Source: Lachnospiraceae bacterium
GTDB taxonomy: Bacteria > Bacillota > Clostridia > Lachnospirales > Lachnospiraceae
DNA: 64,000 nt
Reading direction: 5' to 3'
Assembly: GCA_014804645.1 (NCBI GenBank)
Contig: JAAUZI010000041.1
Span: 15,033-79,032 of the forward strand
Made by a program: the position numbers and the translations under genes. This document shows positions 13,985-55,752 of the stretch, piece after piece. The notes beneath the pieces are model-generated. The model saw only the letters and a list, made by a program, of their open reading frames with translations, had not been told where the DNA came from and did no database searches. Position 1 is the first letter of the stretch, and every line of letters starts with the position of its first letter.

Positions 13985-14026
13985 GAACCGCTGCGCGGCG
14001 GAACTTAAAATAGAGAGGCGTTCATT

Positions 14027-30200: not shown

Positions 30201-30858
30201 GGCGGCTTATCAGGCCTTTGAACAGAAAGAGGTGGTGCCCTATGTGCCCAGTTTCAGGCAGGACGCGCAGGAGGCCGGAGGCACTCTGCGGGGCAATGCC
30301 TTCCACAAGGTCATGGAATTGGCGGACTACGAGGCATTGTACAGAGATGTGTATGAGAAAATGCCGGAGAGCCAGGACGCCTTCCGGCAGATGGGAGACG
30401 AGGGAAAATTGAGGGATAATCTGCGGGAATTTCTTGCCCGGGAGACAGCGCAGGGACGGCTGCCGGAAAGCTACCGCCAGGTGCTGCAGGAGCACAAGCT
30501 GCTGCGCTTTTTCCGGGATGGTCTGGCATGGCGCATGTGGCGGGCGGACCGAGCAGGGGCGCTGTACCGGGAACAGCCCTTTGTCTACGGGATCAGCGCC
30601 GCCCGGCTGAAACCTGATTTCCCGGCGGAGGAAAAGGTGCTGATTCAGGGAATCATCGACGCCTTTTTCATAGAGAACGACCGGATTGTGGTGGTAGACT
30701 ACAAGACGGACCGGGTACAGAGCGGTCAGGAGCTGTGGAACCGCTATGCGGAGCAGCTCAGATACTATGAGGAGGCCCTGGGAAAACTGATGGGGCTGCC
30801 GGTGGGAGAAAAGATTCTCTACTCCTCCAGTCTGGGCTGCTGCGTGACGGAGCCTTAG
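27214..30858 (+). CDS. addA: ATP-dependent helicase/nuclease subunit A
   Basis: The 1214-aa protein is a UvrD-like SF1A helicase fused to a C-terminal RecB-type nuclease. Visible motifs: Walker A ILVSAAAGSGKTAVLVERI (about residues 20-38), LIVTFTNAAAAEMRERI (motif Ia), LIDEYQDSN (motif II), VGDVKQSIYKFRLARPELF (motif III), VRIMSIHKSKGLEFP (motif V) and LRVLYVALTRAREKL (motif VI). The nuclease core VVVDYKTDRVQSG lies near residue 1160. It is translationally coupled to addB. Its stop codon overlaps that of the convergent thiT gene, so there is no room for a terminator between them. Confidence 0.95.
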   Translation: MSIQYTPDQQKVIDLRDRNILVSAAAGSGKTAVLVERIIRMICDETRPVDVDRLLIVTFTNAAAAEMRERIRLGLERELEEHPDSEHIERQVTLLHNALITTIDSFCLYLIRNHFQEIGLDPAMRVADEGESKLLKQDVLQALLEEHFAGGDPAFAACVEFFCPGGRESVLEQHILKLHEYAESCPWPEQWLEERKGDYAAADEAAWGNSACGEYLRRYLIRMVQGCADSLEHMLELCAEGDGPYMYVPVLEQERDMLRNLPEKIAPEGEEFSMSRMAQGLSELNFGKLPVKKDPAVSAEKRELVKSLRSEVKDTLRELREQFFATPISLSLEQMSACQGPVCTLVELAQEFGRAFRERKQEKKLMDFSDIEHYALEILLHREEGEIVPSPVAREYRDYFREILIDEYQDSNLVQEYLLRAVSGEEEGHYNRFMVGDVKQSIYKFRLARPELFLEKYETYTREDGILQRIDLSRNFRSRREVLEAVNGMFANLMSREKGGIDYDEQAALYVGAVYPERPDCRSELLLAEKPEKDSQVTVKTREAQMIAARIHRLRREYQVTDRATGRLRPARYGDIVILLRTTSGWDEEFKEVLEAEGIPVYISSKTGYFAATEVQELLQLLRVLDNPTQDIPLFGVMKSVFGGFEEDEIALLRSENREISLWRAVCNAAEGEDCGGEIREKCSRFRERIDLYRSYTVYMPIRQLLETVLREHDYLQYVTAMPAGSKRRANVEMLLTKASDFEKTSYFGLFHFVRYIEQLEKYDVDFGEAGALDENADVVRIMSIHKSKGLEFPITFVSGLAKRFNMQDANQSFLMDMDFGLGTDFVDTERRVRNRTLRRMVVSRKMREENLAEELRVLYVALTRAREKLIMTACAADAEALWQQYQLRGAGPLSYLDFISAGSYLDYILPSLNPQRVQVTVWQEEELSEQAVREQVDLAGRELQLEQAGLWADREQVQALEQRFAYTYSYRQLERLYTKTSVSELKIAAMEEKDEAAYQAFEQKEVVPYVPSFRQDAQEAGGTLRGNAFHKVMELADYEALYRDVYEKMPESQDAFRQMGDEGKLRDNLREFLARETAQGRLPESYRQVLQEHKLLRFFRDGLAWRMWRADRAGALYREQPFVYGISAARLKPDFPAEEKVLIQGIIDAFFIENDRIVVVDYKTDRVQSGQELWNRYAEQLRYYEEALGKLMGLPVGEKILYSSSLGCCVTEP

Positions 30859-31553
30859 AACGCCATTTTTTTCACATTGCCCATGGCTTTCTTTACCGGG
30901 GGCAGGAGAAGGAGAACGATGGTTACAGCGGCCTCGCAAAAGATATATATGGCGTTGTAGGCCAGGGAGTAAGGCAGCGGCGCCCAGCCCTCCCAGGCAT
31001 AGGCCCCAAAGAAAATCCATCCGGAGAGCACGGCGAACACATATCGGCCCAGCACCGCCACGATATAGCCTTTGAGCAGCCCGTTTTTGCTGCGGGAAAA
31101 TATTCCCGAGAGTCCCAGCGCTCCAAAGGCCAGCAGATAGTCCACCACCAGCTGCGTGGGATAGAGCACATAGGGATCGATCAGCAGCTGCAGCACGCCG
31201 TAGGCGACGCCGGTCAGCAGTCCTGCGCCCAGCCCAAAGAAATATCCGGGCAGGCAGATCACCAGCATGGACAGCAGCGTGACAGAACCGCCCCAGGGAA
31301 ATGAAAACAGTTTGACATTGGACAGTATCGTGCCCAGCGCTATGGCCATGGCACAGAACGCCAGCTGTTTGGCGGTCAGTTTGCCGTGTGGCTTTTTGGC
31401 GGAGGCGTCCGCCTTTTTCTTTTCCTGGGCACGGGCAAATGCCACTGCGCCGCCCAGCAGAGCCAGGACGAGAATGACCAGCAGAATCTTACTCAGAGTG
31501 GTGGGGACATAGGTGGTTTCTCCCCAGTCGTTGACAACAACATCATAGAACAT
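30855..31553 (-). CDS. thiT: thiamine ECF transporter S component ThiT
   Basis: The 232-aa membrane protein has a ~60-residue N-terminal extension with one helix, then a six-helix ThiT core. Conserved features are the NVKLFSFPWGGSVTLLSML segment and YPTQLVVDYLLAFGALGLSG, near thiamine-binding residues in known ThiT. It works with the shared EcfA/A'/T module, which is not encoded here, to import thiamine. A TPP riboswitch and a ribosome-site-sequestering hairpin precede it, giving strong independent support for thiamine transport. The N-terminal extra helix is unusual for ThiT. It is convergent with addA. Confidence 0.88.
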   Translation of the reverse strand: MFYDVVVNDWGETTYVPTTLSKILLVILVLALLGGAVAFARAQEKKKADASAKKPHGKLTAKQLAFCAMAIALGTILSNVKLFSFPWGGSVTLLSMLVICLPGYFFGLGAGLLTGVAYGVLQLLIDPYVLYPTQLVVDYLLAFGALGLSGIFSRSKNGLLKGYIVAVLGRYVFAVLSGWIFFGAYAWEGWAPLPYSLAYNAIYIFCEAAVTIVLLLLPPVKKAMGNVKKMAF

Positions 31554-31584: not shown

Positions 31585-31639
31585 ACGACATCGTAATACG
31601 GAGAGGGAGAGCGTTTTGCCGCCCAGGCCGTATACTTTT

Positions 31640-31730
31640 GCTTCCTTACGCCGGTATTGTCCGGGTCAAGTAGTGAGGGTTAGGATCTGGAAGATCCAAT
31701 CTCAGCGATGCGCTCCCCTAGCGAGTATTT
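31640..31730 (-). promoter_or_regulatory. TPP riboswitch (THI element)
   Basis: On the minus strand the conserved parts appear in order: GGGGAGC, GCTGAGATTGGA (pyrimidine sensor with CTGAGA), AACCC, then TTGACCCGGACAATACCGG and CGTAAGGAAGC (pyrophosphate-sensor helix). Together with thiT downstream the call is secure. Confidence 0.93.
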
Positions 31731-35037: not shown

Positions 35038-35811
35038 ATGAGGAAAAACAGGATAGAACGAGAACATAGCAGCGCCGGAGACGGGCGCTTGGAAGACAGC
35101 TTGGAGCGGCAACTCAGCGTGCTATGGCAGGCTCCGGCTCCTGAGAGAAGGGACACTTTTCTGGCTGGCAGCCCCCCGCTCCCTATAAGTCACAGCGCAT
35201 TCGTCCTTTGCCAGGCGGCATATATACGCAAGCGAGTGTGGGCGCTGTCGGTGGCGGTATTTGCCGCCCTAGTGGGAATTACTGCCGGATGGCAGAGAGA
35301 TGCTCTGTGCGTGGCGGCCGGCGCCATGCCGTTCTTTGCTCTGATTGCGGCCCAGGAGCAGACACGCTCTTCAGTGTACAACATGACAGAGCTGGAGTTT
35401 GCCACCCGCTTTTCGGTAAAAAGTATTGTTCTGGCGAGAATGGGGCTGCTGGGAAGCTTTCATCTGGCGCTGCTGCTTTTGCTGCTGCCATTGTTGGCCC
35501 TGTATGAGCAGATGAAGTTCTGGCATACCGGCGTGTACCTGCTGGTGCCCTATCTGATGACCACGTTTTTGAGTATGGTCTGGTCCAGAAGGGTGCGGGG
35601 GCGGGAGGTCATGTACCTGTGTCTGGGTAACGCCGTTCTGGTGGGCTGCCTGCAGATGGTGGGATATGGGTTGTTTGAGTGGTACAGGGAGAGCTTTTTT
35701 GGCTATTGGATCGCGGCGCTGGCGCTGCTGCTGGCAGCAAACGGATGGGAGTATTATCAGGCCGCCTGCCGGGCCAACTGTATCTATGAGCGGGCAGCTG
35801 CGGAACTTTAA
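35038..35811 (+). CDS. multipass membrane protein of unknown function
   Basis: The 257-aa protein has a ~60-residue charged N terminus and about six hydrophobic segments (for example AVFAALVGITAGW, LALLLLLLPLLALYEQ and WIAALALLLAANGW). The pattern and its place before an ABC ATPase and permease suggest a regulatory or accessory membrane component of that system, possibly an anti-sigma-like partner of the upstream sigma factor. I do not recognise a family. The start at 35038 lies just after a leader hairpin element; the open frame upstream to 34972 is simply that element read in frame. The stop codon lies inside the first linker of the tandem structured units. Confidence 0.6.
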   Translation: MRKNRIEREHSSAGDGRLEDSLERQLSVLWQAPAPERRDTFLAGSPPLPISHSAFVLCQAAYIRKRVWALSVAVFAALVGITAGWQRDALCVAAGAMPFFALIAAQEQTRSSVYNMTELEFATRFSVKSIVLARMGLLGSFHLALLLLLLPLLALYEQMKFWHTGVYLLVPYLMTTFLSMVWSRRVRGREVMYLCLGNAVLVGCLQMVGYGLFEWYRESFFGYWIAALALLLAANGWEYYQAACRANCIYERAAAEL

Positions 35812-36020
35812 ACAGCATACTCCCGAACAGCGCACTGATCCATGTTCGGACAGCAAAGCGGCCGAATATGGATCACCGGCCTTGTGTGCTGTCAGGGAGT
35901 ATGCGGAACTCTAATCAGTAACTGTCCGAACAGTGCCCAGAAGAATATACGGCCGCATTAAAGGACGGATATTCTTCTGCTGGGATGGTACTGGAAGGAC
36001 GGTTACGGAACTCTAAATAG
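35802..36020 (+). ncRNA. two tandem ~90-nt multi-stem units with conserved linkers
   Basis: Unit 1: GCATACTCCC (35815-35824) pairs with GGGAGTATGC (35895-35904); inside it ACAGCGCAC with GTGTGCTGT, TGATCCAT (35836-35843) with ATGGATCA (35868-35875), and TTCGG with CCGAA. Unit 2: GTAACTGTCC (35918-35927) with GGACGGTTAC (35997-36006); CCCAG with CTGGG; AGAAGAATAT (35939-35948) with ATATTCTTCT (35969-35978). Linkers CGGAACTTTAA, CGGAACTCTAA and CGGAACTCTAA precede, separate and follow the units. Both share CCGAACAG after the first arm and a CGGCCG near the apex. The last linker leads directly into the ribosome site of the ABC ATPase gene. Confidence 0.75.
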
Positions 36021-36032
36021 GAGAAAGAAGAT

Positions 36033-36794
36033 ATGGATGAGACGAGAGAAAATGTTGTGCTGTGTGTAGACAATATCAGCAAAAAATATCAGAGCAGAAC
36101 CGTGGTGGATCATATCAATATCAATCTGACCAAGGGAGTCTACGGTTTGCTGGGGGCCAACGGCGCGGGCAAGACCACTTTGATGCGGATGCTCTGCGGT
36201 ATTCTGCTGCCCACGGAGGGACAGATCACTCTGGCCCGGCAGCCCGTGACCAGTGAAAGCTACCGGGCCATGCTGGGGTATCTACCCCAGGATTTCGGGT
36301 ATTACCCGGATTTTACAGGCAGGGAATTCCTGCTCTATATGGCGGCGCTCAAGGGACTGCCGAAACCCCAGGCCCGGCAGAAAAGTAAGGAGCTGCTGGA
36401 ATTGGTGGGGCTGGCGGAACAGGCGCATAAAAAGGTCAGAACCTATTCCGGCGGTATGAAACAGCGGCTGGGAATTGCCCAGGCGCTGTTGGGGGACCCC
36501 AAGTTGTTGGTGCTGGATGAGCCTACGGCGGGATTGGACCCCAAGGAGCGAGTGAGATTCAGGGACTTGATCGCCTCGGCGGGAAAGCGCAGTATCGTGC
36601 TGCTGTCCACTCATATCGTGTCAGATGTAGAGCATATTGCAGATAGTATCCTGATGATGAAGGACGGAAAGATGATCTATCAGGGTAAATGGGAGGAGAG
36701 CCGCGGTGATCTGGAGGCATTTTATCTGGAGCAGTTTGGAGACGGCATCGACAGGGCAGATGAAAAACAGAGAGAAGGAGGGCGGCAGGAATGA
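36033..36794 (+). CDS. ABC transporter ATP-binding protein
   Basis: The 253-aa nucleotide-binding subunit has Walker A GLLGANGAGKTTLMRML (about residue 40), Q-loop YLPQDFG, signature TYSGGMKQRLGIAQAL (about 138), Walker B LLVLDEPTAGLD and the H-loop LLSTHIV. The family is the ABC-2 type exporter ATPases (CcmA-like). It partners with the overlapping permease gene (ATGA junction). The ribosome site TAGGAGAAAGAAG directly follows the tandem structured units. The substrate could be a peptide, lipid or drug; the nearby sigma factor suggests an envelope-stress or bacteriocin-related role, as an inference. Confidence 0.9.
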   Translation: MDETRENVVLCVDNISKKYQSRTVVDHININLTKGVYGLLGANGAGKTTLMRMLCGILLPTEGQITLARQPVTSESYRAMLGYLPQDFGYYPDFTGREFLLYMAALKGLPKPQARQKSKELLELVGLAEQAHKKVRTYSGGMKQRLGIAQALLGDPKLLVLDEPTAGLDPKERVRFRDLIASAGKRSIVLLSTHIVSDVEHIADSILMMKDGKMIYQGKWEESRGDLEAFYLEQFGDGIDRADEKQREGGRQE

Positions 36795-38309: not shown

Positions 38310-39374
38310 GTGGGAACAAAAGAAGTGCGGAGGAAATTTCTTCCCCCAAAGTCAGACGTGGCTTTCAAGGAACTGATGCGCAATGAGACAGTGCGCAGAC
38401 ATTTCATCAGCGATGTGTTGGAGATCCCCCTGGAGGAAATCAGGGAAGTGCGGCTGGAAAATACTTTTTTGAGCAGACGCAGCCGCCGGGAGAAGGAGGG
38501 CATCCTGGATGTAAGACTGCTGATGAACAATGATCGCAGAATCAATATCGAGCTGCAGATCAGGGAAGTCCCTGCCTGGGACAAGCGCAGCCTGTTTTAT
38601 CTGTCAAAGATGTATTCAGAGGGGGCGTATGCCGGTGAGGATTACGGCCGACTGCAGAAGTGCATTGTAATATGCGTGTTGGGGTTTAAGTGGGACGCCA
38701 AGCCGGGTTACCACAAAGTGTACCATCTGCGGGATCAGGAGGGACAGCTGTATTCGGATCAGTTCGAGATACATGTCATTGAATTGGACAAGGAACTCAC
38801 CGGGGACAGACTGGATGATTGGATCAGTCTGTTCCGGGTGGAAAGCATGGAGGAATTGAAAATGATACGAAGCACGAATCCGGGCATCGTGGAAGCGGTG
38901 AGAGAGGTAATGGCAATGAATCTGGGAAGACGACTACGGGCGTTGTATGAAGAGCATATGAGGATAAAGCGGGATCGATTGTATTTAAGGAACATAGCTA
39001 TAGCTGAGGGACTGGCCGAAGGGCATGCAGAAGGACTGGCAGAAGGACTGGCCGAAGGGCATGCTGAAGGGTTGGCAGAGGGGCGCGCCAAGGGACTGGC
39101 CGAAGGGCTGGAAGAGGGACGTGCCAAGGGACTGGCCGAAGGGCGCACCATGGGACATGCCGAGGGACATGCCGAGGGACATGCCGAGGGACATGCCCAA
39201 GGACATGCCCAAGGACATGCCCAGGGTCTGGCTGAGGGAAGAGAACAAGGTATGATTGATTCTGTGCGGAAAATGCTGGCAAAAGGCTATGCCCATGAAG
39301 AGATTTCCGATGTTCTGGAGATTGGCATTGAGGAAGTGAAACGGATTCAGGAAGAGCAGGAGCGGTCTGTCTGA
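38310..39374 (+). CDS. Rpn-family PD-(D/E)XK nuclease/transposase-like protein with repeat tail
   Basis: The 354-aa protein begins with a PD-(D/E)XK-type domain over about residues 1-200: FLPPKSDVAFKELM, an LEIPLEEIREV stretch, then DVRLLMNNDRRINIELQIRE (Asp and Glu-x-Gln active-site pattern) and RSLFYLSKMYSEG. This is the Rpn (recombination-promoting nuclease) or PDDEXK-transposase family. Residues about 231-311 are 4-residue repeats GLAEGHAEG, ending in a short helical tail (KMLAKGYAHEEISDVL). GTG start with AGGAGG. It carries no inverted repeats or partner genes and is solitary. Rpn proteins cut DNA and may act in defence or horizontal transfer. Confidence 0.82.
   Translation: MGTKEVRRKFLPPKSDVAFKELMRNETVRRHFISDVLEIPLEEIREVRLENTFLSRRSRREKEGILDVRLLMNNDRRINIELQIREVPAWDKRSLFYLSKMYSEGAYAGEDYGRLQKCIVICVLGFKWDAKPGYHKVYHLRDQEGQLYSDQFEIHVIELDKELTGDRLDDWISLFRVESMEELKMIRSTNPGIVEAVREVMAMNLGRRLRALYEEHMRIKRDRLYLRNIAIAEGLAEGHAEGLAEGLAEGHAEGLAEGRAKGLAEGLEEGRAKGLAEGRTMGHAEGHAEGHAEGHAQGHAQGHAQGLAEGREQGMIDSVRKMLAKGYAHEEISDVLEIGIEEVKRIQEEQERSV
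39000..39240 (+). repeat. degenerate 12-bp tandem repeats coding (G-H/L-A-E)n
   Basis: About twenty 12-base units related to GGACATGCCGAG encode alternating Gly-(His/Leu)-Ala-(Glu/Gln/Lys). The best preserved run is near 39150-39230. The unit is a multiple of three, so slippage changes tail length but not frame. Confidence 0.88.
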
Positions 39375-55715: not shown

Positions 55716-55752
55716 TAGAGTTGGAACGGAACTTATAATAGGAGGAGTGCAA

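Follow-up and report, generated by a model that had tools for sequence, protein, structure and literature searches.

Two structured units before an ABC ATPase gene of a Lachnospiraceae bacterium belong to a dispersed repeat family sited at ribosome-binding sites

The two structured units that precede an ABC ATPase gene in the 64,000-nucleotide stretch of Lachnospiraceae DNA analysed here (the window) are probably copies of a dispersed non-coding repeat of mRNA leaders and intercistronic gaps, which would be moved by a putative trans-acting enzyme and tolerated where it settles. Most likely the two units reached the ABC operon independently and do not serve it as a dedicated regulator. One family unites strict docking at ribosome-binding sites (RBSs), a sense-strand structure that is kept despite turnover, and recent copying. 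If this reading is correct, two questions open to direct test: which agent brings the element to Shine-Dalgarno sites with a fixed orientation, and whether it is the self-contained fold that renders such a passenger harmless at an RBS. The locus also warns against taking covarying tandem leaders for riboswitches when they are known from one genome only.

Two adjacent units are confirmed on the forward strand of the window, at 35812-35914 (unit 1, 103 nt, matching the covariance model described below at 103.3 bits) and 35915-36016 (unit 2, 102 nt, 92.2 bits). Both have the 5′ end (A/T)CAG and the 3′ end CGGAACTCTAA. An 11-nt copy of the unit end, CGGAACTTTAA (35801-35811, +), lies 5′ of unit 1 and forms the last codons and stop of a membrane-protein gene (35038-35811, +; an open reading frame), whose stop codon, TAA at 35809-35811, is inside this first linker copy. 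The membrane protein ends in AAAEL-stop in the window, compared with AA-stop in the homologues L336, L337 and L145, suggesting, by eye, that the repeat end supplies the last residues and the stop. No NCBIfam family matched this protein at 1e-10. On the other side a Shine-Dalgarno-like AGGAGA (36019-36024, +), read from the sequence, adjoins the end of unit 2 and is followed by the ATG at 36033 of the ABC ATPase gene (36033-36794, +), an open reading frame whose best matches, to ABC ATP-binding families, fall below the curated cut-offs. The array fills the gap between the upstream stop codon and the ATPase RBS, as an initial annotation of this DNA had proposed. An ECF-type sigma factor gene is located farther 5′ of the array. 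Elsewhere in the window a TPP riboswitch (31626-31729, −, 61.7 bits) lies 5′ of a membrane-protein frame (30855-31553, −), and a frame at 38310-39374 (+) contains a long AEGLAEGHAEG-type repeat that by eye recalls Rpn/PD-(D/E)XK-type proteins. The genome that holds the window (G000) also encodes a second ATPase homologue with 70% identity and one in-frame TGA (G000:C26:25609-26298, −).

Each window unit comprises a 10-bp closing helix (P1), a 7-9-bp middle helix (P2) and a long apical helix (P3). On the basis of the fold and the covariation of helix 1, the P1 strands are 35815-35824 and 35895-35904 in unit 1, and 35918-35927 and 35997-36006 in unit 2 (all +). The minimum free energy of unit 1 is −57.8 kcal/mol against a shuffle mean of −28.2 (z −8.9), and that of unit 2 is −46.2 kcal/mol against −22.9 (z −7.6), with none of 200 shuffles folding as well; the architecture of closing, middle and apical stems is as initially described. 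In an alignment of 86 units, hand-picked among the matches in this and related genomes, 92.0% of the paired cells can pair, compared with 72.8% in shuffles and 30-48% in slid controls. Both sides have changed in 31 of the 32 pairs, distributed over three helices, and cells with changes on both sides number 513 versus 157 in shuffles; as the rows are relatives, these counts are dependent and do not represent separate events. When one mostly G-U pair is omitted, P1 and P2 contain 55 G-U against 14 C-A oppositions, which indicates that the strand kept foldable is the sense, mRNA-like strand; column shuffles also display more G-U than C-A, although the excess is smaller, and the shortfall relative to shuffles is larger for C-A. 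Stem pairing is under selection while stem sequence changes, which upholds the selection on structure proposed from the two units. Two units of other genera were also folded: L182 has a strong fold (z −9.9), and that of the distant L168 is no better than the folds of its shuffles (z −1.6).

The units are members of a large family. The unit end GCGGAACTYTAA, with at most one mismatch, occurs 115 times in the 4.29-Mb draft of G000, and the reversed pattern 46 times. A covariance model (R1), built from 18 units including the two in the window, gave 134 matches in G000 at E≤1, some of which are reverse-strand echoes, as the fold is near-palindromic. The set examined comprises 95 forward units in 85 arrays (76 single, 8 double and 1 triple); with a cut-off of 38 bits the model gave 96 forward matches, one of which, cut by a contig end (L119 1632-1701), was excluded, as were weaker and shortened matches. 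The consensus unit of ∼103 nt reads (A/T)CAG - P1 - P2 - P3 - CGGAACTNNAA. The motif first taken for a conserved linker does recur, but it is the 3′ end of every unit and is also found alone before RBSs. Indeed, lone unit ends or shortened units stand before other RBSs at 19 places in the fetched loci. Within the window the lone unit-end motifs GCGGAACTTAAA and ACGGAACTTATA, at 13998-14009 and 55726-55737 (+), directly precede RBSs and are not accompanied by a unit. A small hairpin, GAGGWTC..GAWCCTC, is present at 32 places in G000 versus 1 in the control; it occurs singly or doubly within the unit linker before RBSs (for example near position 1500 of L282, L283, L288 and L294). The left flank ends in this hairpin in 21 of the 85 arrays and in a unit-end-like motif in 37. 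A different tandem repeat, ending CGGAACTGGAA, lies before an RBS upstream of alaS in G001 (L258 1200-1560), and is perhaps a further sub-family.

The two window units represent different sub-types, with CAGCAT...ATGCGG ends in unit 1 and CAGTAA...TTACGG ends in unit 2. They are 65% identical, compared with a median of 68% over all pairs of the 95 units in G000, and thus look like separate arrivals of two different family members; a fresh tandem duplication of one unit is rejected on the same value. Unit 1 is 91% identical to a unit that stands before a purH-like gene. Mixed pairs like that of the window are found at L009 and L090 and an 82% pair at L014, while near-identical neighbours (93-99%) form six pairs at five loci (L015, L017, L041, L099 and L117). 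Near-identical units also occur at separate loci. The units of L027 and L031, and those of L122 and L125, are 97% and 95% identical, respectively, and precede unrelated genes, with flanks that differ right up to the unit ends, demonstrating that units have been copied about the genome.

In G000 a start codon in the same orientation, with an RBS-like site in between, is located downstream of 83 of the 85 arrays, starts being called by a simple rule that accepts loose Shine-Dalgarno matches; it found no start at L095 and L119. The distance from unit end to start is 9-22 nt in 73 of these 83 arrays, with a median of 16, and in the seven arrays with a start at 31-37 nt the GAGGWTC..GAWCCTC hairpin lies in between. 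A co-directed reading frame ends within 60 nt upstream in 41 of the 85. Across 17 other sources a same-orientation start follows in 72 of 83 rows; of the 11 rows lacking one, 9 are no more than 150 nt from a contig end and L081 and L246 are unexplained, one place without a start (G019:C388, L068 = L327) being counted twice. All 26 arrays examined in the congener G371 are followed by a same-orientation start, which in two of them lies ∼125 nt on, behind an apparent further unit; these arrays derive from 30 loci, L390, L397, L409 and L416 having been omitted as tandem partners. The left flank ends in AA in 73 of the 85 G000 arrays (background 9.5%) and a Shine-Dalgarno-like word lies within 18 nt of the right end in 77. 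The right end of the unit is itself A-rich, like the left flank. In a folding model of 75 arrays, start-site accessibility was 0.525 with the array and 0.539 without it (p 0.10); neither exposure nor occlusion of the start site by the arrays is predicted.

The genes behind the arrays display no obvious shared theme, as 27 of the encoded proteins, scanned against protein families, and the remainder, judged by eye, belong to many pathways. Matches above curated cut-offs identified asnS, purM, proC, prfA, gltX, ispE, thiI, pheS, metK, the purH-like gene and a GPH symporter. The scanned fragments of alaS and murD scored below theirs. For 8 of 20 proteins, a subset of the scanned array genes, no family was found at 1e-30. 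The N-termini suggested, by eye, tsf, lepA, etfA, pyrB, apt, gatA, ilvB and aroE.

Orthologous sites can be empty. An alaS paralogue in G000 is preceded by a T-box, then two units, then the RBS; in its orthologues L251 (G014, 84%) and L252 (G026, 79%) the T-box is kept and the units are absent, despite G014 and G026 carrying units elsewhere. A T-box likewise lies 5′ of the unit at pheS, and a SAM switch 5′ of that at metK. At the window locus, 17 same-genus ATPase homologues, read by eye together with the own locus out of 42 ATPase matches, have no full unit in the gap. They include those of G371 and G021 (82% identity), although what is left of a decayed unit may be present in the G021 gap. 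The covariance model and inspection by eye found no full unit in the gap of L145 either (81% identity). The initial annotation had itself named homologous loci without either unit as evidence against tandem, riboswitch-like control of the ABC operon, and these 18 loci are of that kind. Among 80 named ATPase relatives, the closest of which are Lachnospiraceae, the model matched nearby at three loci (L182 and, more weakly, L168 and L162), each time ahead of another gene in the operon. A separate arrangement was seen 5′ of the ATPase homologue of G373 (L351), where near-identical repeats of ∼30 bases were found, every one with its own RBS and start codon (CGGAACGGAGGAGCTGCAATGGAACTGACTG).

The family is patchy both among congeners and across the bacterial family. 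R1 matched 9 of 37 same-genus genomes at E≤0.001, the own genome included, and none of 24 genomes from other families of the order at the same threshold. A family-wide sample yielded a match in 9 of 299 genomes and a class-wide sample in 2 of 291, namely the own genome and one marginal 70-nt hit. The genus and family counts record presence and not copy number, and in all these searches the filters were stricter and the model, derived from G000, will miss some units. The congener G371, a 61% complete assembly, contains at least 149 matches; four units in a row with a spacing of 109 bases (G371:C77:2277-2706) form the longest array among the matches listed. Units of G021 lie near contig ends (for example L298, L299, L302, L309, L313, L319, L320 and L322), a position that would follow if the assembly breaks at near-identical copies.

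Some sites are shared between species. For 15 unit-bearing genes, chosen as conserved and not at random, a match lies directly 5′ in 6 of the 9 orthologues found in the incomplete G371 (one of the six being a 68-nt partial unit) and in 2 of the 15 in G021. In the reverse view, 5 of 26 unit-bearing genes of G371 and 3 of 30 of G021 also have a unit in G000. By a rough estimate a few percent of the genes in G000 carry arrays, and sites are shared more often than that. Yet pairs of units from shared sites are no closer than other pairs (ranks 21-71 of 87). At seven sites occupied in both G000 and G371, agreement in the variable columns of the unit averages 41% (single sites 13-58%), against 40% in random pairs, and third codon positions of the neighbouring genes agree at 62-71% in six of the seven, the seventh being misaligned. 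For one site that G371 and G021 have in common, the flanks are readily aligned and P1 is nearly unchanged, while P3 is different with its pairing largely kept. Shared sites may reflect repeated hits, replacement by other copies or rapid rewriting in place.

How units reach these positions can be outlined conditionally. A putative trans-acting enzyme would recognise the folded sense strand, as ssDNA or RNA, through the constant ends and the loop, and would insert the unit where an A-rich stretch adjoins a Shine-Dalgarno site, 3′ of the A-rich stretch. As Shine-Dalgarno sites have one polarity, such targeting alone would fix both place and orientation, and the AA-ending left flanks and Shine-Dalgarno-like words at the right ends fit insertion of this type. 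Insertions would be tolerated, and hence accumulate, because the units fold on themselves and are predicted to leave the start site accessible. Equal accessibility, empty orthologous sites and the mixed set of genes together point to a passenger and not a control element. Against this, sites are shared between species more often than scattered insertion suggests, which could indicate a selected role, and selection is an equally good source of the strict sense orientation. That the searches yielded no mobiliser, the poor fold of L168 and the lean of shuffled columns towards G-U also count against it. A more far-reaching version is offered tentatively: the units may exemplify a mobile element of a new class, which targets translation-initiation sites, recognises itself by the fold of its sense strand and inserts in one orientation just 5′ of the Shine-Dalgarno sequence. 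At a given site its stems would then be replaced or rewritten until nothing of the ancestral sequence is left, with no change in pairing, loop and ends.

One alternative is a shared cis-acting leader, in which a protein, a nuclease or the ribosome recognises the constant loop and ends, and the unit-bearing genes constitute a large regulon or have an mRNA-stability tag in common, the set having grown by copying between genes. Such a leader would account for the strict sense orientation and tight spacing to the start, for structure kept while stems change, and for site sharing above the few percent of genes occupied. We nonetheless consider it unlikely, since the genes lack an obvious theme, some orthologous sites are empty (including one behind a T-box), the family is patchy among congeners and start-site accessibility is unaffected in the prediction. 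Less probable still is a REP/IS200-like element, with sense-strand ssDNA moved in trans by an HUH (Y1) transposase. High copy number, one-strand hairpin structure and constant ends would suit this mechanism, as would the A-richness of both the left flank and the right end of the unit, because HUH-group cut sites often resemble each other. Y1_Tnp (PF01797), on the other hand, had no match in G000, while the same search was positive in 5 of 14 control genomes, leading us to reject a Y1/RAYT mobiliser in G000; in addition, the GTAG tag is absent from the unit ends in the 86-unit alignment, and REPs occur mainly downstream of coding regions (PMC3733652).

A link with reverse transcriptases was also rejected. 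RVT_1 is present in 6 of 10 unit-bearing genomes and in 7 of 10 comparison genomes. The unit-bearing genomes that lack it are G021, G073 and G233, which are 94-97% complete, and G371, which is 61% complete. Seven comparison genomes (all but G366, G368 and G373) had been shown to be without unit matches, and 6 of these 7 have RVT_1. The search has thus found no mobiliser, with no Y1 transposase in G000 and no association with reverse transcriptases. That the two units are tandem riboswitch-like elements controlling this ABC operon, as first suggested, agrees with their structure and their position before the RBS, but is very improbable. Since the same mobile family stands before dozens of unrelated genes, the units are not a switch made for this transporter; the gap contains no full units in 18 homologues, the two units are sub-types only 65% alike, and 76 of the 85 arrays are single. 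The initial annotation had also allowed for a known repeat inserted at random sites. A repeat it is, but not a known one, and its sites are tied to RBSs.

Comparison with described systems places the passenger repeat favoured here close to, but outside, established groups. The window units matched no Rfam family at the gathering score, and the best match at E≤5 scores 20.9 bits where the gathering score is 65.2, which is at chance level; a known Rfam family is therefore rejected, in keeping with the view that no known class is represented. A search of titles and abstract openings, with incomplete coverage of print, returned no description of this family. Integron attC sites were set aside on what we take to be their core motifs. 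T-box and SAM riboswitch leaders are, like the units, structured 5′-leader RNA, but the units sit 3′ of the switch, by the RBS, as additions, and the genes behind them span many pathways and not the single pathway expected downstream of a riboswitch. The bcr1 repeats of the Bacillus cereus group, which have mobile-element characteristics according to a title cited in PMC2267715, and other stem-loop families of Firmicutes are structured intergenic repeats of similar size; by description alone they differ in that the available part of PMC2267715 makes no mention of strict RBS docking. REPs are high-copy, structured, intergenic sequences thought to be moved in trans, with a GTAG or CGTC tag at one end (PMC3733652). 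REPs and BIMEs are palindromes of 20-40 bp, whereas the units are ∼100 nt with three stacked helices; the units, moreover, stand before genes and REPs mainly behind them (PMC3733652). The unit ends are (A/T)CAG and CTNNAA, with no GTAG or CGTC tag, and PF01797 is absent from G000. The nearest likeness is to MIRUs, which are also short repeats, single or in tandem, in leaders and between co-directed genes. MIRUs have the same orientation as the neighbouring genes and have been proposed to insert in overlapping stop/start sites. The units share the many dispersed copies and the orientation of the downstream gene (83/85), but they do not follow the stop/start-overlap rule, end directly before the Shine-Dalgarno sequence at a median of 16 nt from the start, and belong to another phylum. 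With neither this rule nor the tag and transposase of REPs in evidence, the units were assigned to neither group. PMC4128351 describes a gene whose 77-nt 5′ UTR is, in one species, a class I MIRU and nothing else, the orthologue in another species being leaderless. The units work like a MIRU or interspersed repeat with, in addition, a strict RBS address and freely rewritten, still-pairing stems.
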